Below, in pieces: positions 7,235 through 46,346 of a stretch of DNA of 64,000 nt. The DNA comes from a virus. The DNA lies in the IMG/VR virus record IMGVR_UViG_3300028394_000059, positions 22,785 to 86,784 of that record; one strand, given 5' to 3'. Below the pieces are notes generated by a model. It saw nothing but the letters and a program-made list of their open reading frames with translations. It searched no databases and was not told the origin of the DNA. Each line of letters begins with the position of its first letter. Positions within the stretch are counted from its first letter, which is position 1. Made by a program: the position numbers and the translations under genes.

Positions 7235-7606
7235 ATGAGAGAGATTTATAACAGAGACCCGGAGGATCCAAATTACAATCCTTATCAAATAGAGACCACA
7301 GATCCTACTGAGATCTGCGTGGGCCAACTTAAAATGATACTTCTTACCAATAAGGGTGAAGTTTTAGGTGATCCTAAATTTGGTTTAAATCTGGAGGATT
7401 TAATATTTAATCTTGAACTATCGGAATCCAGTATAAGAAAGGAGCTAGATCTTTTTCTGAAGATTTATTGTCCGCTATTTTCTACGCTCAATGGCACGTA
7501 TGATCTTAAATTTTATGTTGGTACACTAAGAGATATTGCTACATTGGATTTTAAAATACCGGAGGATGGAAAATTAAGTCCATTAGTATCATTAAGATTA
7601 ACATAA
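7235..7606 (+). CDS. gp25: Baseplate wedge protein, gp25/gpW-like
   Basis: The length of 123 residues is close to that of T4 gp25 (132). The core reads VGQLKMILLTNKGEVLGDPK, followed by FGLNLEDLIFNLE. This is the family signature of an I-x-x-I/L-L-T-x-x-G-E start, an x-x-x-FG turn and an aromatic-containing helix. C-terminal strands (YDLKFYVGTLRDIATLDFKI) complete the small alpha/beta fold. In T4, gp25 seats the sheath initiation ring onto the wedge core with gp6 and gp53, and the gp6-like gene follows here after 9 nt. It is preceded by its own GATATATA box. Its start codon follows AATTCCCC without a clear Shine-Dalgarno. Confidence 0.85.
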   Translation: MREIYNRDPEDPNYNPYQIETTDPTEICVGQLKMILLTNKGEVLGDPKFGLNLEDLIFNLELSESSIRKELDLFLKIYCPLFSTLNGTYDLKFYVGTLRDIATLDFKIPEDGKLSPLVSLRLT

Positions 7607-7615
7607 GAAATTGAA

Positions 7616-9340
7616 ATGAATATATTTAAGAAGAATAACATCCTGATCAACGGATTGCTAAATGACACTTTTAACTTTTTGCAATCAACTTACAGTCAGA
7701 CAGCAAACGTTTTTACCGTTGCATCTGCTTGGGGACAAATACTATTTGTGCTCCAGAATTTATCGCAACTTATCCTGTATTTTATCGAGGATTCCATCAC
7801 CGAATTGAATATGCAGGAAGCCACTAGGGATTATTCAGTGCGAAGCTTAGCCAGAATCGCTGGATATGATCCTGGACGTGCGAGTGCAGCTCAGGGAGAA
7901 ATAACACTATCCTGGAATACAATACAGGGGGATGTTGGAGGTGGATCTGTTATTATAAAAAATAATTCACAAATTAGATGCCTTCAGAACGGTAAGATTT
8001 ATTCATTGAGATTTGGAAGTCCAGAAGTTACGATTCCGTTAGTAAGAGGTAATGAACTAAGAGCAAAGCTAGCTCAGGGAACCTTTGAAAATGCCGTGGT
8101 AACAGGTACCGGACAAGCTTTACAAAGTTTCAATCTTCCCTCCAGTGCTGGTGCATTCCAGGATCAATTTTATATTGATGTTTATGTTAATGAGGAAAAA
8201 TGGAAAAGATACGACTCAATATATGACATACCTCTAAATGGCAAGGGCTACCTTGTTAAAACCGGTATACAGGAAGGACTAGATGTTTATTTTGGTAATT
8301 CAAATTTCGGAAGGGTGCCTCAAAGGGGTGCAAGAATAAGAATCGAATATTTACAGACTAGTGGAATAAGTGGTAATGCAAATTCAACCAAGGACACTCC
8401 GTTAACATATAAATTTTCTAGTACAGGTACTGATTTATTTGGGGGTGAGATCGATCTTAATCTTTACATTGATATCAAGAATGAGATAGATCCATCATTT
8501 GGAACAAATCCGGAAACGACAAATCTGATAAGACTAGTCGCTCCAAAAACCAGTAGATCTTTTGTTTTTGCTAATGCCCAAAATTATGAGATATTCTTAG
8601 ATAAGCTTGGTATATTTTCACAGATACATGCGTTCTCAACATTTGATGATGACTATTTGGATGACGATAATGTGGTTTACCTATATTTAGTTCCTGATAT
8701 AACTCTGAACCTTTCCTCGAATGAGGATTATTTTAATGTTGCTACACAAAGTTTCCTTCTTACTGTGGATCAAAAAGCTAAAGTTATTAATCTAATAGAA
8801 GGAACAGGATCTATGATCGCAACTACGGTTATAAAGATTGTTCAACCAGTAATAACTAAATATGTTGCAAATGTTATACTTGGAATATTTGAAGGATCCG
8901 ATCCTGCAACAATCAAACAAGCAATCAGAAAGAACATCTCTGATTATATGATAGGCCTTAAAAGAAGAGACAAGATACCAAAGTCAGATTTTATTGCTAT
9001 TATAGAAGGTGTATCTGGTGTTGATACTGTATCGTTTTTCTTTGTCGGCCAAAAGAACGAGGAAAATCAGACAGCTATTAAGGGATTAACTAATGTTTCA
9101 CAACAACAACTGGATGAGGTTATAGGTATGGATCAATTCGGTGATATTATAATCGGAAGAAATGAATTGGTGTTGCTAAGGGGTGGATGGCAAGATAGAA
9201 ATGGCACACAGTACACAGAATCTATCATTGACGGTAAACCAGGACCACTTAATATAACTGTTGCTTCAATAGTTCCTAGAAATTACAGAAGTGATATGAG
9301 TGCGGGTCTTAAAGCACAAATTATAAGTCAGGGATCTTAA
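7616..9340 (+). CDS. gp6: Baseplate wedge protein, gp6-like (baseplate J family)
   Basis: At 574 residues it is slightly shorter than T4 gp6 (660). The N-terminal ~100 residues have the baseplate-J arrangement: a helical start, the RDYSVRSLARIAGYDPGRAS block in which a helix packs before a G-Y-x-P/A turn, then a beta-sandwich opening (AAQGEITLSWN). Further on, GISGNANSTKDTPLTYK fits the central J domain, and residues 410-480 (IKQAIRKNISDYMIG, FIAIIEGVSGVDTVSFFF) match the conserved C-terminal part of gpJ/gp6 proteins in which an I-x-G-V-x-G-V motif precedes a strand. Position directly after gp25 agrees. It should form the wedge dimers of the baseplate ring. Confidence 0.8.
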   Translation: MNIFKKNNILINGLLNDTFNFLQSTYSQTANVFTVASAWGQILFVLQNLSQLILYFIEDSITELNMQEATRDYSVRSLARIAGYDPGRASAAQGEITLSWNTIQGDVGGGSVIIKNNSQIRCLQNGKIYSLRFGSPEVTIPLVRGNELRAKLAQGTFENAVVTGTGQALQSFNLPSSAGAFQDQFYIDVYVNEEKWKRYDSIYDIPLNGKGYLVKTGIQEGLDVYFGNSNFGRVPQRGARIRIEYLQTSGISGNANSTKDTPLTYKFSSTGTDLFGGEIDLNLYIDIKNEIDPSFGTNPETTNLIRLVAPKTSRSFVFANAQNYEIFLDKLGIFSQIHAFSTFDDDYLDDDNVVYLYLVPDITLNLSSNEDYFNVATQSFLLTVDQKAKVINLIEGTGSMIATTVIKIVQPVITKYVANVILGIFEGSDPATIKQAIRKNISDYMIGLKRRDKIPKSDFIAIIEGVSGVDTVSFFFVGQKNEENQTAIKGLTNVSQQQLDEVIGMDQFGDIIIGRNELVLLRGGWQDRNGTQYTESIIDGKPGPLNITVASIVPRNYRSDMSAGLKAQIISQGS

Positions 9341-9894: not shown

Positions 9895-12800
9895 ATGGCA
9901 AACGTAAGACTTAATTTTTTTAACAAGGAGGGTAATCCATTAAACTTCGATTATATCGGACCTACCGGACCAACTCCATTGGATTCTAGATTCACATACA
10001 TCACATCAGTATCAGGCTCTGCCAATGCTGGTGATATACATATTGATGATCCAGTATCGCCATCAACCCAATATTCGATAGAGTTGAATATCAATGATCT
10101 TAATGGATTTGATCTAACTGCATGGGCTAACGAAGCGACGGATTTCATATTAAAAGGTGCTGATGTGTATTTAAGCGGAGAGGTAGCAGGAGGGCAAAAT
10201 TTTAGATGGAAGATATTCTCTACATCTATAAGTAGCGGATCAGTTTATGTTGCTGTCGATGAGGATGATTACGAGGGGCAAAGAATAATAAGTCCAGGGA
10301 ATCAGATATACTTTACAACAGCCTATGATAAAAGACCAGGCGGGCATTTTAAAGGAAATATATATTTTGAACCGGTTTCTTCTGGACTGTATGAGAATGA
10401 GCAGATATTCATAGTACAAGAATTTGATACACCATCAGGTAAGCAATATGGCGTGCCTCAGATAGGAGCAACAGGAGCAACAGGATCTCCTAAATGGAGA
10501 ACAAGATGGGCCAATGATAATTATGGGGAGACTGATGTAAGCGAAATTATATTTACGTATGCAATACAGGATGAGTTACCTGGTGGTGATGGACAGCCTT
10601 TGATAGTCAGCTATCCTAATCTTGTCATCCCTGTCATTAAAGATCCCAACTCATATTATACTAATGGGTATATCTACACAACCATCAATTCATCAGAAGC
10701 AATTGCAATAAACGTTGCTACTAATGCACCGGATGAGGCAGGGAATATCTACGAGAGAAAACTTATAGTTGAAGATATTACAACCGGTACCCCCGAAAAG
10801 GTACTGGAAGTGGATTACTATGCTGAGATTGTTGGTGAGGATGAAAGATTCAGCGTGCTTCTTGAAAATCTTGGTCGTGCATTCTACAAGAGCGACTCCG
10901 TGATACTTAGGGATCATGATCCAGCAGAGCCCAATGCAAACTTTTTAGAGATTAACGAGAAAAGAAAGGAGCTATTAGTTACAGGTGAGGATATATTTCC
11001 GTATATAGGAAGTTATAAGGGTCTTATTAATGCTCTTAAGTTTTTTGGTTATCAGGATTTAAGAATAAAGGAATATTGGCTAAATCTAAACTATAAGAGT
11101 TTAAAATTAGAATCACCATTACAACAGAATCAGACTTTTCTTAATGCAATAAAATCGGAGCAATCAAAGGGGTATAGTCAGAGCTATCAGGTTGGCGACG
11201 TTTTGAATAATGAGAATTCTGGTAAATATAAACTAACACAAACATATGGACCTGATAATAAAGGAAATTATGTTCTTAGTGTTACTTCGGAGGATTCATT
11301 GGTACCTAGCCGGACATATAAGAAAACATCACTATTTGGTCTCTATTACGATCTAAATAAACCTACCGATGGCATAGATGAGTTTGGTTATCCTGTTGTC
11401 GTAGATGCCTTTAAATTCACACAAGAGGAGGTTCTAATAAAGATATTTGCTTTAAAGGAAAGGCTTAAAAGGGATTATCTTCCGCTAAATGCAAGAATAA
11501 TTGATATAACTGGTGAGGGTGTATATTTTAGTATTTATAATACACGTTCTTGGACCGATGTCATGGAAAGATTTGATGTCGAATCGGGATTTTATTTTGA
11601 TTTCTATCCCAATCCGGACATGGGGTTTATAGAGGATCTTAGAAATTTTTCAACAAGGAAGCTATCAACAGGTATACAGACACCAAGCTCGTATAATAAT
11701 TCATATAAGACAGGTGTTGATTTTGTTGGTGGTACTGGTAGCGCTATTTCTTTCTCCAACACATTACCATATGGTGTTACTGGATATAATCCAACAATAA
11801 CATTAACAGCAGGGAATGCATACGAATTTGATGTTATTGATAGTGGTGGATATGGTTATGATTTTATAATAACTACTGACCCATCATTAACTCAAGTTGA
11901 TCCTCTTGGTATATCGAATAACGGTGCAACCGGCGGGTATTCTGTTTCTTGGTATATTGAACCCGAACAAACAACTCCGGTTTATTATTACTCATCCAAC
12001 AACCCGCTATTATTAAAGGGTGTTATTAATGTGCTTACCCCGACAATATCTGATCTCGGGAATATAGTGGATCCGCTGGATGTGCAGCAAAATTATAATT
12101 CTGCTCAGAATACATCCCTTTTAGAGGCTATTAAAAATTTCTATGATCTTAAACAGAATGGTGATATCATAGAACTAGGAGACGATAGATTCGATCCTGT
12201 GGCTTATATTGATCCTAATACGGGTCAACCATATCAGCTTCCAATAGGCATGCCTGTTATACTGGAATTGATATTGGATAAATGGCAATGGAACGAGCTT
12301 AATATCGATTGGAATGCTTTAATAATACCAACATTTAAGGTTGGAGATAGAGTCCAATTTAAGAATCCGGAAGCATTCTATAATGGGCTTTTTGGTACGG
12401 TTGATGCGGTAAGCTATTCAACAGGAACATATTCTGTTATGATCGATCCACCTTATGGCTTTTCCATACCTGTAGGAGAGGCAGAATTATATTCATCTAT
12501 TCAGATTTATAATCTGCTTACTTGGGACGTTATAGATTTTTCCAATATGATGGAGATCGAGTGGATCCTGAATAAATCAGCTACTCAAAACGGAACACCA
12601 TATCACTTTGAATTTAGAGGCCCAATAACGGACTTTTATAAGCTGGCACACTTCTTACCTTACACTGGGAATTATCAGGTCATATGCAACATCTATGATG
12701 CTTTTAATGCTAAGACAACAATAATTAAGAATGGTGTAATTACGGTACAACCAAAGACTGTTGATATTGATTCATGGACAAGATTTAGGGAGGTTGAGAA

Positions 12801-14685
12801 TTATCTATGGGATAACGTTGATAGAGGATGGGGAGATTATGATTCAATTTGGGAATATCCCGCAGAAGGTGAAAGTATAGAAATACTAGAGAAATCAATA
12901 CCCCGAGAAATACTCGATTTCGCAACATATGGTAATAAATCGGAGGAGGGTCAAAGCCTTTATGTTAAAGTCAATACCTCACCAATTGGTGCTACCGGGT
13001 CTATCACATTTACACAGACGGTAACCAATATATCGGAGATATATTCTCTTCAGATAGGGGGTACGGGTTCTTCCATATATGGATATGCCACTATATCCAG
13101 TGCTACCCCACATGGATTGGTTGATGGTGACGAGGTAAATATATCCGGCACTGTATCTCAGCTTAATGGGAGATGGTTAGCTATACTCGATGGGGCAACA
13201 AATACATTTAGAATACCAATAGCTCTAAGCTCATCATTTAATGGGATATTATTGGAGACATCACCTGTTAATAGATATGTTACGGATCCCTTGGTGTATA
13301 CTAATCAGAAATTTGGTGGAGCGGGTAGCATAACTATTTACGCTGGTGGAAGATTAATAGGAAAATCAGAAACTGGTGATATCCTATATAATACTGCCAA
13401 TGAAATAACATCCGCAATAAACTCATTCAGAACATACCCTGATTATTTTGCTTCTTGTTTAAATCCTGCTGCTGATCCTGTTACTGTTACTATATCAGCA
13501 CCAAATGAACTTGGAGCCGATCAGAATGGAGTGTTACTGGGATCAACATTAACGGGTTCGCTAGTAACGGTTTCTGCAGATAGCATATTGTCTAACGGTG
13601 TAAGTCCAGCTGATACCTATGTTTACTGGTCGGAGAATGATCCAGATCAACCCAATGCAAATCTTAAGTATTGGGGAACTAAAAGATTAAACTGGGAGGT
13701 ATTTAATAGTACCACATGGGAAAATGGGTATGCACATAGTTGGTATGATTTTGAGTTTAATAATGATTGGCTGGGCGGATACGAGTTGCATACTCTTGTA
13801 CCAGGAGATCATGTTAAGATCAGCACAGGAAACAGCACATATCCGTATCCTGTTGGTGTTACATTTACGAATGGTTTATCAGGTCTAACGATACAAGAAG
13901 CAGCAGACCAGCTTAATAATTCGGATGAACCCCACATAACAAATTTCTATTATAGACCAATGCCAAGCGATGTTGGAGGTTTAAGTACCACAGCGGGAGC
14001 AGTAAATGTCACTTCTGGTAATCACCTTTTATTTAATGGTTTATTTCAACCACCACCATCATTAATTGGAGGTAGCCAGCTATTGATCCCTGGATTTGGT
14101 TATACTGGAGGTGTACAAATAACAACGTCGACGACAACAACGACAACATCAACATCAACAACATCAACAACGACGACGACAACAATAGCACCAACAACAA
14201 CAACAACATCGACGACATCGACGACAACAATATCACCAACAACAACAACAACAACAACGGCTGCCCCTATTTGTACATTAGCAGGAACTGCTACAATGGT
14301 ATACCCAGCGACAACAACGTCTACGACTACGACTACAACAATAAATCCTGCACTAAGTACAGTAACGATTTATTGGAGAAGAATATCGCTTGTTCTAGGC
14401 GGTGAGTACTTTGGCGTGGAGGTAGATGATGGAACTGGTAATATAATCGCTGTATTTAGTGATGATGCATTTGGTAGTACGACTCTTGTTATGCCAGTTG
14501 GTGGTATTATGGTTGCTTATATTGTTACGGGGCCAGGCTCAGTTGGCAGTTCTATAGTTATATACGACAATTATCCAACAAATAATAGTCAAGTAGCATA
14601 TGCCTCTGGTAGTAGCCCTATAACAGACCCTATTACTTTAGTAGCTGGTAAAACATATTACATAGGAGCAGCTGTAGATGTGTAG
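9895..14685 (+). CDS. Giant baseplate wedge/fibre protein with C-terminal Thr-rich mucin-like linkers
   Basis: The 1596-residue protein begins with short Gly-x-Thr/Pro motifs (YIGPTGPTP, later QIGATGATGSP). Around residues 365-395 there is FPYIGSYKGLINALKFFGYQ followed by an RIKEYW strand, and near 515-545 the LKERLKRDYLPLNARIIDIT block. This pair recurs in large wedge proteins of phages of this type, although I cannot assign it to T4 gp7 with confidence. Ig-like and beta-rich domains follow. Residues about 1410-1456 and 1473-1482 are almost pure Thr/Ser with Ala-Pro or Ser-Pro breaks, and a small beta domain of ~110 residues caps the end. Thr-rich stretches in virion proteins usually act as extended, often glycosylated linkers. 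A glycosyltransferase gene lies two genes downstream. Confidence 0.65.
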   Translation: MANVRLNFFNKEGNPLNFDYIGPTGPTPLDSRFTYITSVSGSANAGDIHIDDPVSPSTQYSIELNINDLNGFDLTAWANEATDFILKGADVYLSGEVAGGQNFRWKIFSTSISSGSVYVAVDEDDYEGQRIISPGNQIYFTTAYDKRPGGHFKGNIYFEPVSSGLYENEQIFIVQEFDTPSGKQYGVPQIGATGATGSPKWRTRWANDNYGETDVSEIIFTYAIQDELPGGDGQPLIVSYPNLVIPVIKDPNSYYTNGYIYTTINSSEAIAINVATNAPDEAGNIYERKLIVEDITTGTPEKVLEVDYYAEIVGEDERFSVLLENLGRAFYKSDSVILRDHDPAEPNANFLEINEKRKELLVTGEDIFPYIGSYKGLINALKFFGYQDLRIKEYWLNLNYKSLKLESPLQQNQTFLNAIKSEQSKGYSQSYQVGDVLNNENSGKYKLTQTYGPDNKGNYVLSVTSEDSLVPSRTYKKTSLFGLYYDLNKPTDGIDEFGYPVVVDAFKFTQEEVLIKIFALKERLKRDYLPLNARIIDITGEGVYFSIYNTRSWTDVMERFDVESGFYFDFYPNPDMGFIEDLRNFSTRKLSTGIQTPSSYNNSYKTGVDFVGGTGSAISFSNTLPYGVTGYNPTITLTAGNAYEFDVIDSGGYGYDFIITTDPSLTQVDPLGISNNGATGGYSVSWYIEPEQTTPVYYYSSNNPLLLKGVINVLTPTISDLGNIVDPLDVQQNYNSAQNTSLLEAIKNFYDLKQNGDIIELGDDRFDPVAYIDPNTGQPYQLPIGMPVILELILDKWQWNELNIDWNALIIPTFKVGDRVQFKNPEAFYNGLFGTVDAVSYSTGTYSVMIDPPYGFSIPVGEAELYSSIQIYNLLTWDVIDFSNMMEIEWILNKSATQNGTPYHFEFRGPITDFYKLAHFLPYTGNYQVICNIYDAFNAKTTIIKNGVITVQPKTVDIDSWTRFREVENYLWDNVDRGWGDYDSIWEYPAEGESIEILEKSIPREILDFATYGNKSEEGQSLYVKVNTSPIGATGSITFTQTVTNISEIYSLQIGGTGSSIYGYATISSATPHGLVDGDEVNISGTVSQLNGRWLAILDGATNTFRIPIALSSSFNGILLETSPVNRYVTDPLVYTNQKFGGAGSITIYAGGRLIGKSETGDILYNTANEITSAINSFRTYPDYFASCLNPAADPVTVTISAPNELGADQNGVLLGSTLTGSLVTVSADSILSNGVSPADTYVYWSENDPDQPNANLKYWGTKRLNWEVFNSTTWENGYAHSWYDFEFNNDWLGGYELHTLVPGDHVKISTGNSTYPYPVGVTFTNGLSGLTIQEAADQLNNSDEPHITNFYYRPMPSDVGGLSTTAGAVNVTSGNHLLFNGLFQPPPSLIGGSQLLIPGFGYTGGVQITTSTTTTTTSTSTTSTTTTTTIAPTTTTTSTTSTTTISPTTTTTTTAAPICTLAGTATMVYPATTTSTTTTTTINPALSTVTIYWRRISLVLGGEYFGVEVDDGTGNIIAVFSDDAFGSTTLVMPVGGIMVAYIVTGPGSVGSSIVIYDNYPTNNSQVAYASGSSPITDPITLVAGKTYYIGAAVDV
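14122..14262 (+). repeat. ACA/ACG/TCA trinucleotide tract encoding a poly-Thr/Ser linker
   Basis: The DNA is an imperfect microsatellite of ACA, ACG, TCA and TCG codons, so slippage would change linker length in whole codons without breaking the frame. It encodes Thr and Ser with IAP and ISP interruptions. Confidence 0.85.
14311..14340 (+). repeat. Second ACA/ACG/ACT Thr-coding tract
   Basis: A 30-nt stretch of Thr codons with one Ser, just before the terminal beta domain of the same protein. Confidence 0.75.
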
Positions 14686-14731
14686 GACCTTAAGAACCTT
14701 AAGATTTAAAATGCAATTTAATTAATAAAAA

Positions 14732-15388
14732 ATGGAAACAGCACTAATAACATTAACAACAGCGGGAGCGGACACGGGTTCTTTTAGTTTATCCTCGAAT
14801 ACAACCGGATTTGCAACCACCTTTGAAAGTGGAATATCTAGAGCATCACTGCTAGCTGGATACACATCCAATTTGGTTCCTCCCGGAACAACAACAATCA
14901 GGGTTAAATCAAATTCGGTTGGTTGCAGTAATTTCGTGGATATAGTTGTTGGTGGAATAACGACCACATCCACAACAACAACAACAACATTACCACCATC
15001 CAATTCATTTCTTACTAATTATTCCATAAACGACATTACCATCAGTTTTCAATTATATGCTAAGGCTGGTAGCTCCTCTTATACCCTCTTTTATGCAACA
15101 CCAGCAGCAGTAACTATCTCGAAGGGAGGAACCTATGGATTTAGTACGTCATATCCCGCAGGTTTAGGAAGCGGGACACGTTCTTTTAAGCTTGTGATAT
15201 CTGCGGGAAGCACAGGAATAGTAGCGAATGTATCAGCGTTCTATCTTAATTCAGATTTGGCCTCAACATCAGTGGTGAAATTTTCTGGTAACACTCCGGC
15301 GGCTGGGGCTTTTCAAGCTGTTAGTGTTGTAGAGGCAGGGGATAGCGTATCATTCATAGATGCATATATCACAACTACATTTGTATAA
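14732..15388 (+). CDS. Small Thr-linker virion protein (two beta domains joined by poly-Thr)
   Basis: This 218-residue protein has a beta-rich domain (residues 1-75, ending FVDIVVGG), a Thr/Ser linker at about 77-87 (ITTTSTTTTTTLPPS) and a second beta domain to the end. The layout repeats the C-terminal design of the preceding giant gene: a small beta domain hung on a Thr tract. It may have arisen from it, or may be a separately expressed tip module. No catalytic motif is visible. The 46-nt gap upstream contains a direct repeat of ACCTTAAG. Its role is probably virion decoration or surface binding, by analogy only. Confidence 0.55.
   Translation: METALITLTTAGADTGSFSLSSNTTGFATTFESGISRASLLAGYTSNLVPPGTTTIRVKSNSVGCSNFVDIVVGGITTTSTTTTTTLPPSNSFLTNYSINDITISFQLYAKAGSSSYTLFYATPAAVTISKGGTYGFSTSYPAGLGSGTRSFKLVISAGSTGIVANVSAFYLNSDLASTSVVKFSGNTPAAGAFQAVSVVEAGDSVSFIDAYITTTFV
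14960..14989 (+). repeat. ACA-type Thr-coding tract in the small linker protein
   Basis: Ten codons, nearly all Thr, dominated by ACA. This is the third tract of this kind within 900 bases. Confidence 0.75.
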
Positions 15389-15449
15389 TTTTCATAAAGT
15401 GGAACAGAACGTATTAATTTCCATATAATAATCATAAATAAAATTAGAT

Positions 15450-16415
15450 ATGATTAATAAAAAGATGACATTTATATGTGCTCAGCCGGATGTTCCATAT
15501 TTTCACTGGCAGGTTGAGGTGTTCATTCATAGTGCAATGAAATCTGGGATTAATCCAAACTGGATAGAAATCCTATTTGCGTATGACGAAACACCATCTG
15601 ACGAGGGCTTAAAATTAGCTCAGAAATATCCATTTATTAGATTTTTCTTTTACCAGAAAACTGTGAGCGAAAATTATGGATATATTCCTATATTAAGACC
15701 GGACGTTCTGGAACAACACTTCTTTAAATATCCAGAATTGTCTAACGAGATAATATTCTATCATGACTCCGATATAATATTTAGAGAGCTACCCGATTTT
15801 AATTTGCTAAATGATGATGATTTTTGGTATCTCAGCGATACTATTTCTTATATTGGATCCGATTACATAAAAAGTAAATCTGATAAGTTACTCACCGACA
15901 TGTGTAATATAGCTGGTGTTTCTAGAGAACTTGTTGAGGAAAATAATGCAAACTCTGGTGGTGCCCAATATCTTATGAAAGGCATAGATCATCTTTTCTG
16001 GAGAGATGTTAAATTCGTTTCTCTGGATCTTTATAAATATATGCTTGATGCAGAGATGGCAGAGAGACCAACATTAACAGGGGAGGAGCTAAATACATAT
16101 AATCCCATTCAAAAATGGTGTGCTGATATGTGGGCAGTGTTATGGTGTGGACTAAAGACTGGGCATCAGGTCAGGTTATCGCCTGAACTTGGATTCAGCT
16201 GGGGATCTTCATGGGGATGTCATGAATGGAATCTTCATAAAATAATGCATAATGCTGGAGTAACCGACAACATGGGTGGAAGATGTTTCTATAAGGGAGA
16301 TTATATAAACCAACTCCCTTGGGATGTGGATTTTTCTGGGATTGATCCGCAAAGTAACACATACAACTACGTACAGGCAATTCTTTATGCCAAGGTGATG
16401 CGAACACAACTATAA
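15450..16415 (+). CDS. GT-A-type glycosyltransferase (DxD motif), candidate virion-protein glycosyltransferase
   Basis: The 321-residue protein starts with a Rossmann-like opening (MTFICAQPDVPYFHWQVEVF) and has NPNWIEILFAYDE as the second strand region. Its key site is EIIFYHDSDIIF near residues 108-119, where DSD is the metal-binding DxD of GT-A glycosyltransferases. The NANSGGAQYLMKG segment near 173 is the usual N-S-G-x-Q acceptor-side motif, and the C-terminal half has Trp-rich motifs (WCADMWAVLWCG, GFSWGSSWGCHEW). It resembles peptidyl Ser/Hyp glycosyltransferases more than lipopolysaccharide enzymes, though I cannot place it in a numbered GT family. It lies directly after the two Thr-linker genes and before Gly-x-Thr-rich fibres, so glycosylation of these is the natural guess. 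There is no signal peptide; it should be cytosolic. Confidence 0.65.
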   Translation: MINKKMTFICAQPDVPYFHWQVEVFIHSAMKSGINPNWIEILFAYDETPSDEGLKLAQKYPFIRFFFYQKTVSENYGYIPILRPDVLEQHFFKYPELSNEIIFYHDSDIIFRELPDFNLLNDDDFWYLSDTISYIGSDYIKSKSDKLLTDMCNIAGVSRELVEENNANSGGAQYLMKGIDHLFWRDVKFVSLDLYKYMLDAEMAERPTLTGEELNTYNPIQKWCADMWAVLWCGLKTGHQVRLSPELGFSWGSSWGCHEWNLHKIMHNAGVTDNMGGRCFYKGDYINQLPWDVDFSGIDPQSNTYNYVQAILYAKVMRTQL

Positions 16416-33300: not shown

Positions 33301-35893
33301 GGAAAATTATACCGCGGAGAGAGCCAATGTTTCCAGAATAGTTCCTTTTATAAATAAATGGGCATATACTTCAGGTACAGATTCTAGGGGTAACAATTAT
33401 AGACTTAATGTTAGCCCTGCATTCTCTCCGACAAATTTTTCACCTAGTTTGGATAAGAACGTTCCTGACTCAAGATATGTTACGCATGAGTGGTTCTTAT
33501 TGGAACAGCCGCCCGTAGGATTTCCTGTAGATCAGATGCAGAATCAAAATAGTTATCTTCCGGGAAAGATAGATTTGGATAAAGCTAGAAGTGCAGATCC
33601 TTCGGATTACCTGTACCTTAATTCATATTTTACAGTGGAACCGTCCGATTATGAATCACAATATGTTGATAATACCTCATATACAAAAGAATTATTTACA
33701 CCGTTTAAATATAATAAATCGGATGGATATTACGAGACTCTATTTAGAGGAGTAAAGGTTACTTTAAGGAAAAGATCAAATATCTCGGATGCTTATTCAA
33801 ATTCTGCAGATAAATATATTCCTAAATACAGAGGATATGAGGATTATAAATTTGCTGCTATATTAAGGCCAATAGACGAGAATGACTCCACAATACAGGA
33901 TCCTGTTCGATATGAAATAATAGAAAATCAACAGCAGAAATTCATACTATTTGTTTGTGATGTTTTGATGGGTGATTATAAATCTTTACCAATAGGATAT
34001 ACGGGTGGAACCGGTGGGACAGGTGGGACAGGTGGGACAGGTGGAACCGGTGGATCACCTGTTCTTGATTATACACTATTGTATTCATTAAGTAATAAGG
34101 AAAAATTAAGAAATCCGTTATCCGTTGGTGAAAAATATTATGAGATGGCGGACATAAAGTTAAGCTCAGCTCTAGATCTATCGCTTTCTTCAGGTAGCAT
34201 AGTAGATACATCAAGAAGCCCAGGTATAATAAATTATATACCTAGTAGTACATATGATACTGATCTTAGAGAGGAAATACACACATTTTATGCTGAGAAC
34301 TCTGTTGGTGCAGTTTCTGGACCAAGTCCAACCGGTATCGGAAGCTTCGATGTTCCGTCTATATCAGGAACATATCCTTGGCCCATAGGGGTCGGACCTA
34401 ATTATATCGAATTCGGAAAGGTTGCAACCGGTGCTGCTAACTACACATTTCAGATACCGTTTTCTGCATCCAATCCAGTGACAGTCCCTGTTGGACCAGC
34501 ATCCGTATATAGGGGCAATCCTGTTTTTCAGAAGGGTGGGGGTGAGAATTATTATGATTCTATATTAACAAGAATAACAGCTGCTGATATCTCAGCAAGA
34601 ATAAATAGAGGATCTAAATACATCTTGTATAAAACCTACGTCTGGGATGAAGTAAATTCTGTCACTGTTGAAAAATCTGATGATTTCCAGCTGCGTTTGG
34701 ATAGACCGACAAGGATAGTTAAAGGGAAGGGTACAAGGATAACCGATTTCTACGGGGGTCCACAAACAATCGGGCAATATACACCTACAGGTTACACTAT
34801 TCAATCAAATCAGGATCTTCCCTCAACACTACTTAGGTATTCTGGAGGGTATGAACCTTTATTCAGAAAAGTAATACATTTTGATGGTGATAAAAGTGAT
34901 AAAATATCGGGATATACCGCTTTAGATCTATCATTTAGAAATTGTAATTTTGCACCGAATAAATTATATTTCGGTGTATCAAGAAATCTACAGTTCGCTA
35001 AGGTTTCACCCGATAGCAATATATTATCATTAAGCGAAAATTTACCGGAGGGACCTGTATATCCATTGGTTGGACAGTCACCTATATGGAAGAAAGACTT
35101 TAATTTATTTTCTTCCTCATGGGATCCTGGTTATTACCAAAAATTTACTGGGCCCTCAGTATATACTGATGTAGCGGGTACAAGATCGATGAAAGAATAT
35201 AAAAACTTCTTTGGGTCAAAAATAATGAAGACACCGGATCCTGTTGATTTTGATAATTACATAACCCTGCAGATATCTAGAACTAATGGTAATACCGACG
35301 TTGCAGCACTGAATAATTCTATAGATTCTTACATAAAATCAGTCCAGGAAATATCGCCTACCAATTCGGGGACCGGTATAGGAAGTGTTGGACCATATCT
35401 TTCCGGTGTGGATTATGATAAAATAGATCCTAATATATTTCCTGATGCTGAAATCATTTGGCAATATTTTAAGGAGACGAATCTAATAAAGGGTACGATA
35501 AGGCTAGATAAAATGCTAAGGAGATATCTTCTTAACTCCGGAATAAAACAAGTATTTATAGATAATATGATTTCTGATTTTGGAGTAGGAAGTCCTGATT
35601 CAATAGATGATGATGTTAATACTTATATAGATCTTAATGTATCCCCTTTATATATGGGAAATATTTTTGATCTTTATGTAAATAAAAACGGAACTACTGA
35701 GGGCAAATTAATGGATCCTAACTACATGGTAAGAGGTGATATAACATCGTCGGATAGATATAAAATGGGATATATCAATGAGATCAATTATAAATTAACA
35801 AAAAATAAGGATTTAATTTATAATTTTGAGTATAATCTGGAGAGCAATTATAATTATTCACTGCTCTTTGACCTAGGAATAACTAAGATATAA
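30326..35893 (+). CDS. Giant virion structural protein (1855 residues, largest in the window)
   Basis: The protein starts MSGAKLFDYNSSFSVIRTNP and is beta-rich throughout, with many Tyr, Asn, Ser and Gly residues. It has no catalytic signature I recognise. At about residues 1226-1243 a run of Gly-Gly-Thr triplets forms a flexible hinge coded by near-identical 9-nt units. The C-terminal 150 residues contain helices (IIWQYFKETNLIKGTIRLDK) and end in a Tyr/Asn-rich strand region. It is followed after 6 nt by the first collagen-like gene. Probably a long fibre or baseplate arm. The function is inferred from the cluster only. Confidence 0.55.
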   Translation: MSGAKLFDYNSSFSVIRTNPKLTGNFRITVDSNGEVNFNSMSVNQTLSDNRFKAFNITGENSFSLDLFNFFDKGQTPYNTIFQVGEFTKGARQIVKEYSEQYDFYYASGASPLADKNYGESFSYFAPLWIKNEIPDYFVIFKVPGPIAYPYSKNYTTISPGINYKIVKDYYSEEDFKIIYGKDPSGNDIVLGSGDIFTGNSVYNTYTIMSGVGRVVIYNELEYLEESNDINTLFTQKILPNLTIVKTFDIRENTKIGKYIRSVFNNPQFSKSPIDVSFGPNAYTYFNGVSVKDGIYTRKGEILSTYYSGDSSDKMMDFESYVTSGFSRNGMICPNLLNMEFLFDDDDSDMYTINRYMGFYVSRNDMASLRLDGNAFYEYRNMPGNNDLPKPSRNSFGYYYDNTTYGVTASNGVRLFYEGASGYLPGSWDVNNLDSNKVFYLTDKYDNFYNLGRAKDLALFDSANNPIPDVSYGPFDPATGGFVIYGSSGAASGNVLLQDMNVDLLNFTGTDKKVGTIPGTRATSAGKAYCEIEFTKNYDLNTPLTFKIYWPNGKKKEGSKRYDIVTADDFSSSLVWVAGSYYSTGSDYYFNAKDGTYEEIATSLSNLLDEVNYSTWETGVNLNSTIIRLNDSGIYGNTDYSISVFDDYAAFVSLFRGNWSNSLSYSINEIVIYNGNYYQTSSNISAPAQGSFNSNPDAAAGWTHYMTFSNPGYLKINGTDASAIGSAVYFEGGTRSINNRIIFPAEYDGLVEPGYYIKTTAGYSIITSVTKYVDLPKLDSVTRKIIGFDDFTYLRVANIGESVVTSTNRLNTPFTPIVELGSDNSFNTYKTPDLKIGVFTFFDSKEFDFDFWSSAYGYTPTAETYKYFQLQPDVANTIVKNIPYVIKQGQINYAGSLYDQGNIFYGATGYTSFTDANPNLFKDLIVIPAQYSDIDYDPSALNYSQIGYNGDLDAFNGFIGIQSLTPNTLADTASKLQIFNRGKLDTEYEYLQENYTAERANVSRIVPFINKWAYTSGTDSRGNNYRLNVSPAFSPTNFSPSLDKNVPDSRYVTHEWFLLEQPPVGFPVDQMQNQNSYLPGKIDLDKARSADPSDYLYLNSYFTVEPSDYESQYVDNTSYTKELFTPFKYNKSDGYYETLFRGVKVTLRKRSNISDAYSNSADKYIPKYRGYEDYKFAAILRPIDENDSTIQDPVRYEIIENQQQKFILFVCDVLMGDYKSLPIGYTGGTGGTGGTGGTGGTGGSPVLDYTLLYSLSNKEKLRNPLSVGEKYYEMADIKLSSALDLSLSSGSIVDTSRSPGIINYIPSSTYDTDLREEIHTFYAENSVGAVSGPSPTGIGSFDVPSISGTYPWPIGVGPNYIEFGKVATGAANYTFQIPFSASNPVTVPVGPASVYRGNPVFQKGGGENYYDSILTRITAADISARINRGSKYILYKTYVWDEVNSVTVEKSDDFQLRLDRPTRIVKGKGTRITDFYGGPQTIGQYTPTGYTIQSNQDLPSTLLRYSGGYEPLFRKVIHFDGDKSDKISGYTALDLSFRNCNFAPNKLYFGVSRNLQFAKVSPDSNILSLSENLPEGPVYPLVGQSPIWKKDFNLFSSSWDPGYYQKFTGPSVYTDVAGTRSMKEYKNFFGSKIMKTPDPVDFDNYITLQISRTNGNTDVAALNNSIDSYIKSVQEISPTNSGTGIGSVGPYLSGVDYDKIDPNIFPDAEIIWQYFKETNLIKGTIRLDKMLRRYLLNSGIKQVFIDNMISDFGVGSPDSIDDDVNTYIDLNVSPLYMGNIFDLYVNKNGTTEGKLMDPNYMVRGDITSSDRYKMGYINEINYKLTKNKDLIYNFEYNLESNYNYSLLFDLGITKI
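34003..34054 (+). repeat. GGTGGGACA-type 9-nt tandem repeat encoding Gly-Gly-Thr
   Basis: About five to six units of GGTGGGACA/GGTGGAACC in tandem, in frame, giving (Gly-Gly-Thr)n. It is a likely hinge and could vary in copy number without a frameshift. Confidence 0.8.
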
Positions 35894-35899
35894 AAGAAT

Positions 35900-37447
35900 A
35901 TGCCAAATATCAATATACAGACATTAAACTATACCGATCCTCAATCAGTAGTCATAGATAGATTGAATCATAATTTCGATGAAATCATAGAGGCAAATGG
36001 GGGATCTCAGGGTCTATTTGGACCAACTGGATTTGCTGGTCCTATAGGAGGTAGAGGACCCGTTGGTCCATCAGGATCTGCAGGAATAAGAGGATCGAGG
36101 TGGTACGTTCAGCCAACCACACCACTACAGAGTACCGTCGTAGATGGAGATTTTTGGGTTAATAGTTCATCCGGTGAAATTAATGAATTCTCTGAATCCG
36201 GATGGAATTTTACTGGATATACACTAGCAGCAGACGGAAATATTTTTTTATCCTCTCCATCAACATATACATCGGGTGCTACTGCTGGCTCTTCGATAAT
36301 GCTTGACCGAATATTGCCTGATGATTATCTTTTCGTGGTAGCTGACAAGGTTCCTGAATCCGGGGTTCTTAACGAGAATCTTTCCAAATTTATGATATCA
36401 ACGGATCCCTCCGTAAATGATTCCCCAATACTTGAATTTTCTAGAACTGATCTTGAGAACGGAACAGTTGCTGATTATTCTAAACATCCATTATTCAGAT
36501 GGAAGAATTTTGATGCGGATGATAACTCCGTGATATTTCAAATTCCTGGAGGTGCATTTATTATTGGTGCTTCAGGAGGATTTACCTCCACCTTTAGTAA
36601 TTTAAACGTAGCATCATCTTTATCAACTGACATATTATACGGAGCTACTTCTGGATCCGGAATATATTCAACGGGTGGATTTAATATAAATTCTCCAAGT
36701 GGGCAATTTAATATCATAAGTTCATTCATTAATATTACAGGTGGATCTGGATCTATTTCCGCCCCTGTAAATGCCACTGCAAATTTGGATAGTAATACAT
36801 TATCATCTTATATTTATGCGGGTGGACCAACCGGATCATCCGGTTTAACAACATCCAGAATGAGTGATACGTTTCAAACACTATCTCATTCAGTATACAA
36901 TGTTAGTTTAGAGTCATCCAGTGGGAGGGAATTTTTTATTGATACTAAAGGAAAGGTTAAAACTAATAAATACGAGACCTCAATACAATACGCATCAACT
37001 ACACCTGGTGCAACCAGCGTAATATCGGCTAGGACAGTAAACTGGTATCTCATATCAAGACCAGGAACACCTGTTACGTCATCTGTATTAGAAAATGGTA
37101 ATACCATAGTATTAAATCCATCAGTACCCACAAATACTTATATTGGTGTTGGAATATACAATGGTAACGAATACTCATGGGGAGGGTCTGGAGGACTTGA
37201 TTATGGACAATCAATAGATATAGATGTTCACTTTAGTCCAAATACGGTTCAACCTGGATTTTCTGATGGATTCAGATATATCGGAAAGGGTGCTACCGCA
37301 GGAAATGCAACCAGTGTTATAAATTTACCTTTTGCTGCGGCTACCGTGGAATTTACTGTTGCAAGGGGAGTAACCGGAGGCAATACCTCAGTTTTTTATC
37401 GAGCTTATGGACAAACAGGAGGATCCGGGGGATCTTTTGTTCTTTGA
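35900..37447 (+). CDS. Collagen-like fibre protein, paralogue 1
   Basis: The 515-residue protein opens with a short module (residues 1-33, ending HNFDEIIEANGG). Uninterrupted Gly-x-y triplets follow at about 38-66 (GPTGFAGPIGGRGPVGPSG), then a conserved W-Y-V-Q-P-T-T-P...D-G-D-F-W-V-N-S-S-S-G block, then a long beta-rich region and a C-terminal domain ending SGGSFVL. The Gly-x-y stretch should form a collagen triple helix. Thr in the y position, as in GPT, is a glycosylation site in other bacterial collagens. It shares its whole N-terminal design with the next two genes, so the three arose by duplication. The role is probably a side or tail fibre. Confidence 0.7.
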   Translation: MPNINIQTLNYTDPQSVVIDRLNHNFDEIIEANGGSQGLFGPTGFAGPIGGRGPVGPSGSAGIRGSRWYVQPTTPLQSTVVDGDFWVNSSSGEINEFSESGWNFTGYTLAADGNIFLSSPSTYTSGATAGSSIMLDRILPDDYLFVVADKVPESGVLNENLSKFMISTDPSVNDSPILEFSRTDLENGTVADYSKHPLFRWKNFDADDNSVIFQIPGGAFIIGASGGFTSTFSNLNVASSLSTDILYGATSGSGIYSTGGFNINSPSGQFNIISSFINITGGSGSISAPVNATANLDSNTLSSYIYAGGPTGSSGLTTSRMSDTFQTLSHSVYNVSLESSSGREFFIDTKGKVKTNKYETSIQYASTTPGATSVISARTVNWYLISRPGTPVTSSVLENGNTIVLNPSVPTNTYIGVGIYNGNEYSWGGSGGLDYGQSIDIDVHFSPNTVQPGFSDGFRYIGKGATAGNATSVINLPFAAATVEFTVARGVTGGNTSVFYRAYGQTGGSGGSFVL

Positions 37448-37483: not shown

Positions 37484-39151
37484 ATGGCAGATTTAAAACT
37501 ATTAAGAATTGAAGATGGCGACTCCCAGTCAAATCTAACAGATAAGGCAAATTATAATTTTGCAAGTCTGCTAACATCTGGAGGTGGACCATATGGAAGA
37601 ATCGGACCCATCGGACCTGATGGTGCTAAAGGCCCAACTGGACCTATTGGATCATATGGTTATTTTGGAGGGAGAGGTACAATATGGACTGTTGGTCCAT
37701 GTCAACCAACCGTGACCTCATCTGTTTCTGGTGATTTTTGGATAAACTCGGAAAACTCAAACTCAGTATATCAATTTGGTAACGGTGCATGGTCATTGTA
37801 TGGATTCAATCTTAAATCTCAGGATCTTTTTTCCATAAAAGGACCGATAACAACATCGGCGGGGTTGTCATCTAGATACGGATATTTTCTGTCATCAAAT
37901 ACCCCAATAAACTATACGGTAGTTATTAGTGATAATAAATCGATGAACAGCGGTACTGTGAGTTCGCCAAATGCTTTTGCAAATCCTCAATACTCCAAAT
38001 TCGTAATAGCAACTAATGGTGCTACTGCGGGTAGAAATATACTTGAATTTAGTAAATTCTCATATTCTGCAAGCCCCGCATTTTCCTCATCAACCCCTAG
38101 ATTTAAATGGCTAGCAACTGGAGCTACTGGAGATGATTACGGACTTGGCTTTAATAGTGCGGGTTCATTAAATATTACCATACCGTCTTCAGATTTGGAA
38201 CTTAGATCCACATCAGAATTTGTATATTTTAACTCCATTGGATTTAATTTCTATATGAATAGCTCGCAGGTATTTACAACAAATTCTACAGGGAATACGG
38301 TCTTTGATTTTGGGAGTGGTGTTGCTAGATTTAGCACAAAAAATATATCATATTCTTCGGGTCAATTTAACATTCCAACATCATTTAATACATATACGCA
38401 AAATACAGATTATGATCCTCCACTATCATTATTAACGTACTCATCTTTGGCAGGAAATCTGAGATATTTGTATAACGCAAAATCAAATGCTGATGCTATT
38501 TTATTCAGAAGCGCACAATCAGGAACAACACTATTTTCTGTTTCTGGTAACGGATATGTTTATATGAATAAAAAAGTTAACTCTATACAACAAGAACAGA
38601 CATTAACACAAACCGTACAATCGATACCACTATCAGCTGGGGTAACCGTAAATTGGACAACAATAACACCATCAATATCAGCAACAACCTCAGCAACAAA
38701 CCTTTTTTATGTAAACAACGGCTCTAATTACGTGATAAAAAAATCACCATCAGCAGCAGCCGGCCAGAGAGGAATTTGCTTATGGACTCCTGCAACGGGA
38801 GGATCTTTTGGTAACAATGGGGGTTGGCTGAATCTTGTAGAGAATGGCGAAGCCATCTCATTCAAGGTTCATAGTGATAATCCGGGATCAACTGGCAGTC
38901 ATTTTAAGTACTTGGGTCTGAACACAACTAACAATCCTTTAGGTTCGCCTAATTCATATGGAGGGTATAATTCAGAAATAAGTGAATTACCAAGTGGTGC
39001 TTCTTCCGTTGAATTTACAATAGTTAATATAACAGGAACAGGTGGAACAAGTGGTACTAAAAGATGGTATAAAGTATATTATTCAGCCTGGGGCGGTGGT
39101 TTAACCGGACATTCCTGTGGAGTACTAACAACATACCCATCAACATCTTAA
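37484..39151 (+). CDS. Collagen-like fibre protein, paralogue 2
   Basis: The 555-residue protein repeats the plan of its neighbours: an EDGDSQSNLTDKANYNF start, Gly-x-y triplets at about residues 35-66 (GPIGPDGAKGPTGPIG), then the conserved block with W-T-V-G-P...S-G-D-F-W-I-N-S and a G-A-W-S-L-Y-G-F motif. The shaft is Ser/Thr/Asn-rich beta structure and the C-terminal ~120 residues form a different tip domain (ending TTYPSTS). Conserved stem and divergent tips are what one expects of paralogous fibres adapted to different ligands. It has its own promoter-like box. Confidence 0.7.
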   Translation: MADLKLLRIEDGDSQSNLTDKANYNFASLLTSGGGPYGRIGPIGPDGAKGPTGPIGSYGYFGGRGTIWTVGPCQPTVTSSVSGDFWINSENSNSVYQFGNGAWSLYGFNLKSQDLFSIKGPITTSAGLSSRYGYFLSSNTPINYTVVISDNKSMNSGTVSSPNAFANPQYSKFVIATNGATAGRNILEFSKFSYSASPAFSSSTPRFKWLATGATGDDYGLGFNSAGSLNITIPSSDLELRSTSEFVYFNSIGFNFYMNSSQVFTTNSTGNTVFDFGSGVARFSTKNISYSSGQFNIPTSFNTYTQNTDYDPPLSLLTYSSLAGNLRYLYNAKSNADAILFRSAQSGTTLFSVSGNGYVYMNKKVNSIQQEQTLTQTVQSIPLSAGVTVNWTTITPSISATTSATNLFYVNNGSNYVIKKSPSAAAGQRGICLWTPATGGSFGNNGGWLNLVENGEAISFKVHSDNPGSTGSHFKYLGLNTTNNPLGSPNSYGGYNSEISELPSGASSVEFTIVNITGTGGTSGTKRWYKVYYSAWGGGLTGHSCGVLTTYPSTS

Positions 39152-39154
39152 CAT

Positions 39155-41206
39155 ATGCACTTTAACACTAAATATATTTTCCAGGGGGATTCTCAAAAAG
39201 AGATAGGCAGAAAGATCAACTATAATTTTGATCAGATATTATCTTTTGGGGTTGGTCCGAATGGACACATGGGACCTAGAGGTGCTACTGGATTATACGG
39301 ACCTGCTGGATATAGAGGCACCAAGGGTGCAACTGGTATTCGAGCAAATCAGTGGTTTAAACAACCAGCCCAGCCGCTAAGTAGTCAAACAATACCTTAT
39401 GACGTATGGGTTGATAACTCCTCAGGTGATGGTGATATATACACATTTGGTACTACTGGCTCTTGGAATTATAGCGGATATTCATTCTTTAACTCAACCT
39501 ATTTCAAATCGTACTCTGGGATATTAGGTCCTGGTGGATCTACCGAAAAATATGTTATTGGTATTAACGATGCCGGAGGTTCTGATTTGATAAATTTGGT
39601 TATAAATGATGGCGTACTAAATGCTTCTAATTCTAATCCAAATGCATCAAAGGTCGTAGTATCAACAACGGATCAGATAACCAGGCCCATAATGAGTTTC
39701 GGAAAATCGGGAGCGATATCATCGGGTGTACCCTCATTTTTATGGGACAGCATAGGTTCTTCAACCGGTTTAATCTATAGATCAACGGGATCACTAAATA
39801 TAACATCATACCTTGGTCTATCAATAGACTCCGGACTAGCCAGAACGATATTATTCGGTAATAATTCAAATATATCGGCATCTTCATTTTCCATTAGGGG
39901 CAATGGCGATTTTGATTTATATGCAAATACCACAATCGGAAGCGGATCTATATTTAAACTAACATCCAGGAATCTTGTTACAAGTGCAGCATCTTTCACT
40001 CATCAGGGTCCTATGAAAATATCAACCTATCAATCGGGTACATATTCTCTAAATATTTCGCCAACGACTGCATTATTATCAGCTGGTATATTGAACGATG
40101 TTAATGGCTCTGTTACTAATACATTTTCTTTTAATGATCTTACTGGAAACCCAATTTTATCTGGTAAGCCATATGGCCCGATCGGTACTTCCAAGCACGC
40201 TGAAACCATATTTGGATCCACCGGGGGATTAACTGGGGGTACTGCTGGACCATATTCGTATCATGTTAAGAGAGCAGCAATTGTAGCAAAAGTAACCGAG
40301 ACTGTTCAAAATGTTATCCCGTATCCGGCAAAAACTGGAGGTGTCCAAATTTTTAATGTATTTGATTTAACTGCAACCAGCAATTATAATTCAAATGTTA
40401 TAGTAATTAGACCAACATTATATACAGCACCCTCCTCTATTCTCTATGGGGTCTATATTAGAGTTCCGGCATCGGTATCTCAAAATCTACAACCGGTTTA
40501 TGGCACAGATAAAACAAATATTTATAGGATAATGCTTGATGATAGTGATTATTTTATGCAGAAAATTATAGGTGGTATAATCTTTACATTCACAGACTAT
40601 GGTTCGGGAGGTCTAACGTCAACATCATTCCTTACTTCCGTTACACTACCTACACACGGTGGACCAGGTACTGGATGTAAATATATTGATTTGCATTGGA
40701 TAGCATATGCGAATCCTAACAACTCTAACCCTAGACTTTTCTATCGAACTTGCACAGGAATAGGCGGATATGTAGATCTAACCAATTTGGCAACTGTCGG
40801 TGCTGCGACTAGCTCAGTTACTACCGGAGTTTCCTCAGGGTCTTCAACTGGCTCCTCCTTTTTTGGTAAAATCATATGCAATTTATTATATCGCCAAGGA
40901 TACTTACCTAAAGAAATTTGGGAAGCCGATGAGAAATTTGGTAGATTAATGTTTAAAACAAATAAGAAAGGATTGTTTGGTTATTCAACTTGGGCAAAAC
41001 CTGTGGTTAATTTCTTAACTAAAAACCCACAATATTCGAAATATTTCTACTTAATAGTAAAACCTTGGTCTGAACACATGGCTTATAAGATGGGAGTATT
41101 ACCTAAGGATAATAAACTTGGAAAAGTGATACATTATTTTGGTAATAAATTCTCACTTATGGTTTATAAATTAATAGCATACAAAAAAATAAGAAAGAAA
41201 AAATAA
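39155..41206 (+). CDS. Collagen-like fibre protein, paralogue 3, with extra C-terminal helical domain
   Basis: The 683-residue protein begins three bases after paralogue 2 ends. Residues 9-66 carry the shared module (QGDSQKEIGRKINYNFDQIL and Gly-x-y triplets such as GPRGATGLYGPAG), followed by the conserved QWFKQPAQPLSSQ block. Unlike the other two, it ends in an extra domain of about 110 residues after a Ser-rich linker (residue ~570). This is a helical, Trp/Lys/Tyr-rich segment with YRQGYLPKEIWEADEKFG, W-A-K-P-V-V and KPWSEHMAYKMG motifs, and it is strongly basic at the end (KKIRKKK). I recall similar C-termini on other large phage virion proteins but know no function. It could be a tip, a chaperone or a membrane-active part. 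Confidence 0.65.
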   Translation: MHFNTKYIFQGDSQKEIGRKINYNFDQILSFGVGPNGHMGPRGATGLYGPAGYRGTKGATGIRANQWFKQPAQPLSSQTIPYDVWVDNSSGDGDIYTFGTTGSWNYSGYSFFNSTYFKSYSGILGPGGSTEKYVIGINDAGGSDLINLVINDGVLNASNSNPNASKVVVSTTDQITRPIMSFGKSGAISSGVPSFLWDSIGSSTGLIYRSTGSLNITSYLGLSIDSGLARTILFGNNSNISASSFSIRGNGDFDLYANTTIGSGSIFKLTSRNLVTSAASFTHQGPMKISTYQSGTYSLNISPTTALLSAGILNDVNGSVTNTFSFNDLTGNPILSGKPYGPIGTSKHAETIFGSTGGLTGGTAGPYSYHVKRAAIVAKVTETVQNVIPYPAKTGGVQIFNVFDLTATSNYNSNVIVIRPTLYTAPSSILYGVYIRVPASVSQNLQPVYGTDKTNIYRIMLDDSDYFMQKIIGGIIFTFTDYGSGGLTSTSFLTSVTLPTHGGPGTGCKYIDLHWIAYANPNNSNPRLFYRTCTGIGGYVDLTNLATVGAATSSVTTGVSSGSSTGSSFFGKIICNLLYRQGYLPKEIWEADEKFGRLMFKTNKKGLFGYSTWAKPVVNFLTKNPQYSKYFYLIVKPWSEHMAYKMGVLPKDNKLGKVIHYFGNKFSLMVYKLIAYKKIRKKK

Positions 41207-45629: not shown

Positions 45630-46346
45630 ATGAATTTAGTCGGAATAGACTTTTCATTAAATTCCCCTGCTTTTTGTTGTTTTAAGAATGGTAATTACAT
45701 ATGGGGATCTTTAACAAGATCTGACAGAAAACCGGAATCTCTTATGAAAAATGCTAAGAAGCCTTTTTCAATACTCGATTCTGAAGAGGATTTTAAATTA
45801 TACTTTATTGATAAAAAGGATCTACCCGAGGATTATACTGGTAGAGAAAGAATAAAGATAGTTTATTTCCAGGAAATAGTTGATACCTTATGGGATAATA
45901 TATTAGAGATCATGGGCGACGATGATTTCTATGTTGCTATGGAGGGATTAAGCTTCTCATCTAATGGTAATGCACTAATAGACATATCTATGGCAACAGC
46001 ACTACTCAGGAAGAGAATAATAGATAGAATAGGTGTTGAGAAATTCCACGTGTTTTCACCAACATCGATAAAGAAGTTCGCAATTAAGGGAAATGCTAAG
46101 AAGGACGAATTATATAATGTTCTCTGTAATTTCAGAGAAGATGAAACAAATTTGATAAACTTCAGTAATATATTAGAAATCAACAAGACCGAGTGGATAA
46201 CACCTTCTAAGGTAGTTAACAAACCAATTGATGATATTGTGGACGCAACTTGGATAACATTGTATTTAAAGAAGGAATTAAAAGAATTAAAAGAAAATTA
46301 TGGAATTAAAGGAAATCTTAAACCAGCACTTACAGGAAGCCTCTAA
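45630..46346 (+). CDS. RuvC-like (RNase H fold) Holliday junction resolvase/nuclease
   Basis: In 238 residues the RuvC catalytic pattern is visible: strand 1 MNLVGIDFSLNSPA with Asp7, the second acidic strand YVAMEGLSFSSNG with Glu105, the basic SPTSIKKFAIKGNAKKDEL helix typical of RuvC (K-x-x-x-x-G-x-G/N-x-A-x-K), and the C-terminal PIDDIVDATWI with Asp201, Asp202 and Asp205. It is longer than cellular RuvC (about 170) because of an insertion at residues 35-80. In T4-like phages junction resolution is otherwise done by endonuclease VII, which is not seen here, so this may take that role. The last 47 nt overlap gmhA. Confidence 0.7.
   Translation: MNLVGIDFSLNSPAFCCFKNGNYIWGSLTRSDRKPESLMKNAKKPFSILDSEEDFKLYFIDKKDLPEDYTGRERIKIVYFQEIVDTLWDNILEIMGDDDFYVAMEGLSFSSNGNALIDISMATALLRKRIIDRIGVEKFHVFSPTSIKKFAIKGNAKKDELYNVLCNFREDETNLINFSNILEINKTEWITPSKVVNKPIDDIVDATWITLYLKKELKELKENYGIKGNLKPALTGSL

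Follow-up and report, generated by a model that had tools for sequence, protein, structure and literature searches.

A phage GT-A-fold glycosyltransferase paired with portable poly-threonine tags: a candidate system for O-glycosylation of virion proteins

Introduction

According to three reports, the mycobacteriophages Che8, Corndog and Myrna glycosylate their own capsid and tail tube subunits by means of phage-encoded enzymes (PMC12619734, PMC11652166, PMC12363180, citing Freeman et al. 2023), and the glycans are described as lying at the C-termini of these subunits (PMC12619734).

The locus described here is part of an 86,784 bp viral record, of which a stretch of 64,000 nt (the window) was analysed. 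It carries Thr/Ser tracts in two neighbouring proteins, encoded directly upstream of a glycosyltransferase candidate. We consider it very probable that this enzyme O-glycosylates poly-Thr tags on the phage's own virion proteins. It is also probable that phages of Bacillota and Bacteroidota, together with large aquatic phages, share a hitherto unrecognised system of virion O-glycosylation that pairs a tag with an enzyme, in which the tag has repeatedly been placed on mutually unrelated proteins of the virion (capsid, tail tube, head-tail and baseplate region) and is lost together with the enzyme. No report of an association between poly-Thr and the enzyme was found in a literature search of largely open-access journal papers.

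Results

Gene order and Thr/Ser tracts

The late genes of the window are on the + strand. Baseplate-wedge-type genes (phrog_261 and phrog_219) at 7235-9340 are located upstream of the tract genes and are followed on their 3' side by genes for a 176-aa, a 1596-aa and a 218-aa protein and, after a gap of ~60 bp, by the 321-aa ORF at 15450-16415. The features are as follows:

9895..14685, + strand: large tail/baseplate-region protein, 1596 aa
14119..14259, + strand: Thr/Ser tract 1, aa 1409-1455 of the 1596-aa protein, putative glycan acceptor
14305..14340, + strand: Thr/Ser tract 2, aa 1471-1482 of the same protein, putative glycan acceptor
14732..15388, + strand: 218-aa protein with a conserved N-terminal beta domain, a Thr hinge and a variable C-terminal part
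14960..14998, + strand: Thr/Ser tract 3, aa 77-89 of the 218-aa protein, putative glycan acceptor
15450..16415, + strand: predicted GT-A-fold glycosyltransferase of the phrog_4417 family, 321 aa
15765..15773, + strand: D106-S107-D108 (D-x-D), putative metal and nucleotide-sugar site, both Asp invariant
16248..16250, + strand: H267 of an H-N-A-G motif, nearly invariant in the alignment of homologues
16293-16295, + strand: codon of K282, which forms a conserved motif with H267 and G270

It follows from their position 3' of the baseplate-wedge genes that the 1596-aa and 218-aa products are virion proteins, and this status is also supported by the annotated major tail and capsid proteins that are tagged beside the enzyme in distant phages. 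The arrangement proposed in the sequence-only reading, three Thr/Ser tracts in two neighbouring ORFs with a DxD-containing ORF next to them, was confirmed by the coordinates and by residue shuffles, which yielded a tract in 0/2000 trials for the 1596-aa protein and 2/2000 for the 218-aa protein. When all genes of the window were checked, no such tract was found in any other. The Thr codons of the tracts are mixed (ACA/ACG/ACC/ACT), indicating that they did not arise by a recent single-codon expansion; a degenerate 45-bp repeat was identified at 14121-14258 (TRF). Chance or slippage as the origin of the tracts was ruled out by the shuffles, the mixed codons and the conservation across distant phages.

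Residues 1 to ~1400 of the 1596-aa protein are conserved in all relatives, and the C-terminal extension that contains the Thr tracts is found only where the enzyme is present. Taken as a whole, the model of the 218-aa protein is of low confidence (pLDDT 61), although its N-terminal domain is predicted confidently; the pLDDT of tract residues 75-90 is below 50 and this segment is probably disordered. The tracts of the window phage look like flexible linkers joining beta domains. In one relative (L328:13816-15012) the tract protein is 399 aa long, and its C-terminus, with the last residues ..FANDTLTHNK, is Hint-like (PF07591, E 0.0025), which suggests a self-cleaving region that is absent from the window's 218-aa homologue.

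Fold and conserved residues of the enzyme

The 321-aa product is a member of phrog_4417 (profile match E 6e-63, enzyme residues 6-314 to profile positions 1-291 of 293). The family is annotated as 'unknown function' and in some records as 'prophage pi2 protein 34', and a function or glycosyltransferase label was absent from the annotations and libraries searched. The enzyme has no Pfam family at E <= 1 and matches no NCBIfam model, and a search of PDB sequences with the enzyme family profile found no GT8 or GT24 member; sequence membership of CAZy GT8 or GT24 was rejected on the Pfam and PDB-sequence profile searches.

The AlphaFold2 model, built on 36 natural homologues, has a pLDDT of 93.8 and a pTM of 0.91. 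Foldseek returned 222 PDB matches at E <= 0.001, the top ones being GT-A enzymes; the matches include WbbM, UGGT (GT24), GT8, GT6 and LARGE1, and also TarP (teichoic acid). The TM-scores to GT-A structures are only about 0.4-0.5, with ~10% identity, so that the predicted GT-A enzyme forms a separate family. On the basis of this model the protein can be confidently predicted to be a GT-A-fold glycosyltransferase. The sequence-only reading had considered it more like a peptidyl glycosyltransferase than an LPS enzyme; such a distinction is unreadable from the fold, since an O-antigen enzyme (WbbM) and a protein glucosyltransferase (UGGT) both rank as its best matches in the PDB.

Residues D106, D108, H267, G270 and K282 are invariant or nearly so in 134 aligned rows, and D106 and D108 are invariant in all alignable homologues, as would be expected if the enzyme is active and metal-dependent. 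The H...G...K motif is one that we take to resemble the GT8 H-x-x-G...K metal/phosphate motif.

Distribution of the enzyme and of poly-Thr

In 60 viral loci that contain the enzyme gene, a tract protein is mostly encoded directly upstream. After dereplication of the enzyme loci at 90%, a tract gene was found at most three genes upstream of the enzyme in 67 of the 80 short-form loci; in the control, 4 of 1805 genes of enzyme-negative homologous loci had a tract. Among the exceptions, SAC12B has Thr-rich KPTTVAPTTV repeats in place of poly-Thr, and in four jumbo-phage-type loci the enzyme is away from the tract genes, with poly-Thr proteins encoded elsewhere in the same record, as in L020, L021 and their relatives. 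The apparent lack of a tract in L064 was an ORF-calling artefact. The remaining tract-less enzyme loci are in bacterial genomes, mostly of Bacteroidota, and 15 further long forms of the enzyme (about 490-830 aa), on Bacteroidota chromosomes, are likewise without a tract. Chromosomal homologues, mostly within this size range, occur in Chitinophaga, Pedobacter, Mucilaginibacter and others (L068-L094). As no poly-Thr neighbour was found for the Bacteroidota chromosomal homologues (the 15 long and a few short forms), the family appears to have another substrate too, on which the chromosomal enzymes are likely to act.

A scan from the poly-Thr side detected eight loci with the enzyme, which in all eight is directly downstream of the tract gene. 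Of 26 poly-Thr viral records without an adjoining enzyme, 24 had none elsewhere in the record, some of these records possibly being fragments. Only a minority of poly-Thr phages have a phrog_4417-type or another adjacent glycosyltransferase. Poly-Thr is not sufficient, as most poly-Thr viral records are without the enzyme, and some enzyme-less poly-Thr phages may use other glycosyltransferases. Long poly-Thr proteins without a phrog_4417-family enzyme were found in many viral contigs, among them L124, L136, L146, L162 and L177.

A variant of the favoured explanation is that a second host or phage enzyme places the first sugar on the tract and that the enzyme studied here adds to or elongates it. 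A GT2 gene lies between the tract gene and the enzyme in L059, at least one Bacteroidota long form has an extra C-terminal Glyco_transf_7C-like domain, and GT2 genes are common in the surveyed phages. GT2 genes do not, however, separate enzyme-positive from enzyme-negative phages, and beside the structural genes of the small phages that were examined no other glycosyltransferase candidate was seen; we regard the two-enzyme variant as unlikely.

Joint presence and loss of tract and enzyme

The check put forward in the sequence-only reading, co-occurrence of Thr tracts and this glycosyltransferase in other phages, was carried out with relatives of the tail protein and of a capsid protein, and in both sets tract and enzyme were present or absent together. 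When the count is limited to those relatives of the 1596-aa protein whose downstream sequence was long enough, both are present in 20, neither is present in 47 and no case is mixed; two further tract-positive contigs end before the enzyme position and are outside this count. A tree of 52 relatives shows at least five independent changes of the label, each of them affecting tract and enzyme jointly. The proteins of L352 and L373 share 82% identity over 1391 residues. In L373 the whole tract extension and the enzyme are missing, and the genes that come next are in place. No copy of the enzyme was found elsewhere in 18 enzyme-negative records searched end to end.

The alignment of the major tail protein was too diverse for a scan of the collection and a Firmicutes capsid protein was used instead. 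Of its relatives (~73% identical), three have both tag and enzyme, 60 have neither and none is mixed (Fisher p 2.5e-5, with relatedness ignored and the three positive loci being few). The phylogeny-aware statement is the tree count. The capsid gene is ~2.1 kb from the enzyme gene with other genes between (in L104 there are four genes between the capsid and tail-protein genes), so that simple hitch-hiking of neighbouring DNA fails to explain the link. These comparative tests support tract and enzyme as a putative functional pair.

It could be argued that the enzyme alters a host surface glycan (LPS, teichoic acid or other), leading to superinfection exclusion or receptor change, and that its adjacency to the tracts is incidental. 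The best PDB fold match being the O-antigen enzyme WbbM, the match to TarP and the chromosomal homologues without a tract neighbour are all in keeping with such a role. It does not, however, predict the perfect joint presence and absence of enzyme and tracts, nor the tags on capsid proteins encoded some 2 kb away, nor the fact that phages of Gram-positive and of Gram-negative hosts alike keep the enzyme next to late structural genes; a host-surface role for the phage enzyme is thus very unlikely.

Thr tags in isolates and prophages

Distant relatives of the enzyme, at 31-43% identity, are also accompanied by Thr tags, which take another form. In 16 isolates (phages of Lactococcus, Lactobacillus, Enterococcus, Staphylococcus and Chryseobacterium), Thr-rich tags are found on the major capsid protein (MCP), the major tail protein (MTP) or their neighbours, often with near-identical tags shared by unrelated proteins within a phage. 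In the siphophage/Firmicutes relatives the tag forms the C-terminal tail of a capsid or tail-tube protein, and the MCP and/or MTP is tagged in phiFL1A, 1706, bIL285, iLp84, CHPC836, VPE25, SA2 and others. In Enterococcus phage phiFL1A the MTP has the C-terminus TTTTTSTTTTTTSSTTTTTTTQASSK and the enzyme gene is directly next, while TTTTTTTTTHHD is the C-terminus of both the MTP and a 686-aa head protein of phage 1706. The capsid and tail proteins of iLp84 both end in TTTTTTTSK, and those of CHPC836 end in TTTTTSHA and TTTTTTTHA, respectively. Lactobacillus phage Iacchus has repeats of TTTTTSTTTVKP, and Chryseobacterium phage MA9V-3 has two tract proteins. In Bacillota prophages the tags are simultaneously on capsid, head-tail and tail proteins. 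Poly-Thr also occurs in the prohead protease (an annotated assembly protease) and in tail proteins of staphylococcal phages (L402:1874-2980, L409:47-1159, L410:2-1084).

Tag endings (the residues after the last Thr) were compared in 32 genomes with at least two tagged proteins, and agree in 18 of 54 within-genome pairs vs 151 of 2721 pairs between genomes (permutation p 0.0002). Part of this likeness may reflect copying or relatedness of the sampled phages. The within-genome likeness together with the mixed synonymous codons points to selection on the peptide.

That tract and enzyme are merely a hitch-hiking tail-gene exchange cassette, with plain flexible linkers and no enzyme-substrate tie, accords with the window's clade, where extension and enzyme adjoin and are gained or lost as a single block, but is highly improbable. 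In Firmicutes phages the MCP, head-tail protein and MTP that carry tags are encoded by separate genes, as far as about 2 kb from the enzyme, and all of them change together. Moreover, proteins that are not homologous bear the same tag, and bear it at the extreme C-terminus, a place that calls for no linker.

Sugar donor and G-x-T triplets

A gene for a GmhA-like phosphoheptose isomerase (PRK00414, E 8e-71, just below the curated cut-off) is located at 46300-46899 of the window, adjoining a gp32-like SSB gene, and had been proposed to provide a heptose precursor. It is kept in the window's close relatives and is absent from the enzyme-less sister phages L329 and L330. The SIS isomerase is, though, mostly limited to the window's subclade and missing from most enzyme-positive genomes, including records of 430 kb and 385 kb; no nucleotidyltransferase accompanies the GmhA-like gene in the window, and a sugar nucleotidyltransferase was not found in 18 of 19 records. 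A heptose-donor pathway linked via gmhA is not supported by this distribution. Given the diverse hosts and that no linked donor genes were found, the sugar donor is likely to be a common host UDP-sugar.

The proposal that G-x-T triplets of other fibres are sugar sites, as in BclA, likewise gained no support: relative to the composition-based expectation the triplets are about 1.1 to 2 times as frequent, a slight excess only, and no link to the enzyme was seen. Four neighbouring fibre-like genes (window 34004-34053, 35900-37447, 37484-39151 and 39155-41206) contain a Gly-Gly-Thr repeat and short collagen-like G-x-y runs.

Discussion

The sequence-only reading had the enzyme dedicated to the virion Thr tracts, and for this part there is strong support in the way tract and enzyme occur and disappear together and in the sharing of tags. 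Its arguments from gmhA, G-x-T triplets and fold gained no support. We infer that the enzyme would move a sugar from a host nucleotide-sugar onto Thr, and probably Ser too, of the low-complexity tracts. The tract would be a portable acceptor tag, in many siphophages a C-terminal tail on the major capsid or major tail proteins and in the window's large aquatic phages a mucin-like inter-domain linker on tail proteins. The sugars would probably be added in the host cytoplasm, either ahead of assembly or while it proceeds, and would give the particle a hydrophilic glycan brush, with a possible role in shielding, in preventing aggregation or in adhesion to polysaccharide. The data suggest that many unrelated phages decorate their own particles with sugar through a portable tag and a matching enzyme.

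This proposal gives a testable function to an unnamed protein family of well-studied dairy, enterococcal and staphylococcal phages. It predicts sugars on the heads and tails of many phage particles, for which poly-Thr at capsid and tail C-termini would be a simple sequence marker. If true, there would be consequences for the interaction of particles with hosts, mucus and immune systems, and the pair may provide a way to glycosylate a peptide tag with a single enzyme.

Comparison with known systems

Within PHROG 4417 the window enzyme is a direct sequence member, and its gene is likewise placed beside tail or capsid genes. With GT-A enzymes of the GT8, GT24 and GT6 types (UGGT, LARGE1, alpha-1,3-GalT) it has in common the predicted GT-A fold, the D-x-D and a GT8-like H...G...K, but it matches no Pfam GT family. 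In Bacillus BclA, as proposed for the window, Thr is the O-glycan site of a surface protein; the sites there are in G-P-T triplets, whereas the window's putative acceptors are Thr runs.

The Che8 enzymes are of the GT2 and GT25 types by sequence match, unlike the window enzyme, and the phrog_4417-family profile has no significant similarity to Che8 gp108-gp110. They are encoded in another part of the genome, whereas the window enzyme adjoins the tract genes, and the Che8 capsid and tail C-termini are without poly-Thr. If the proposal is true, phage virion glycosylation would extend beyond mycobacteriophages, to another family of enzymes and to an acceptor of another, portable kind. Mycobacteriophage virion glycosylation is the closest known system, and the window's module, as predicted here, would work like it without being a member.
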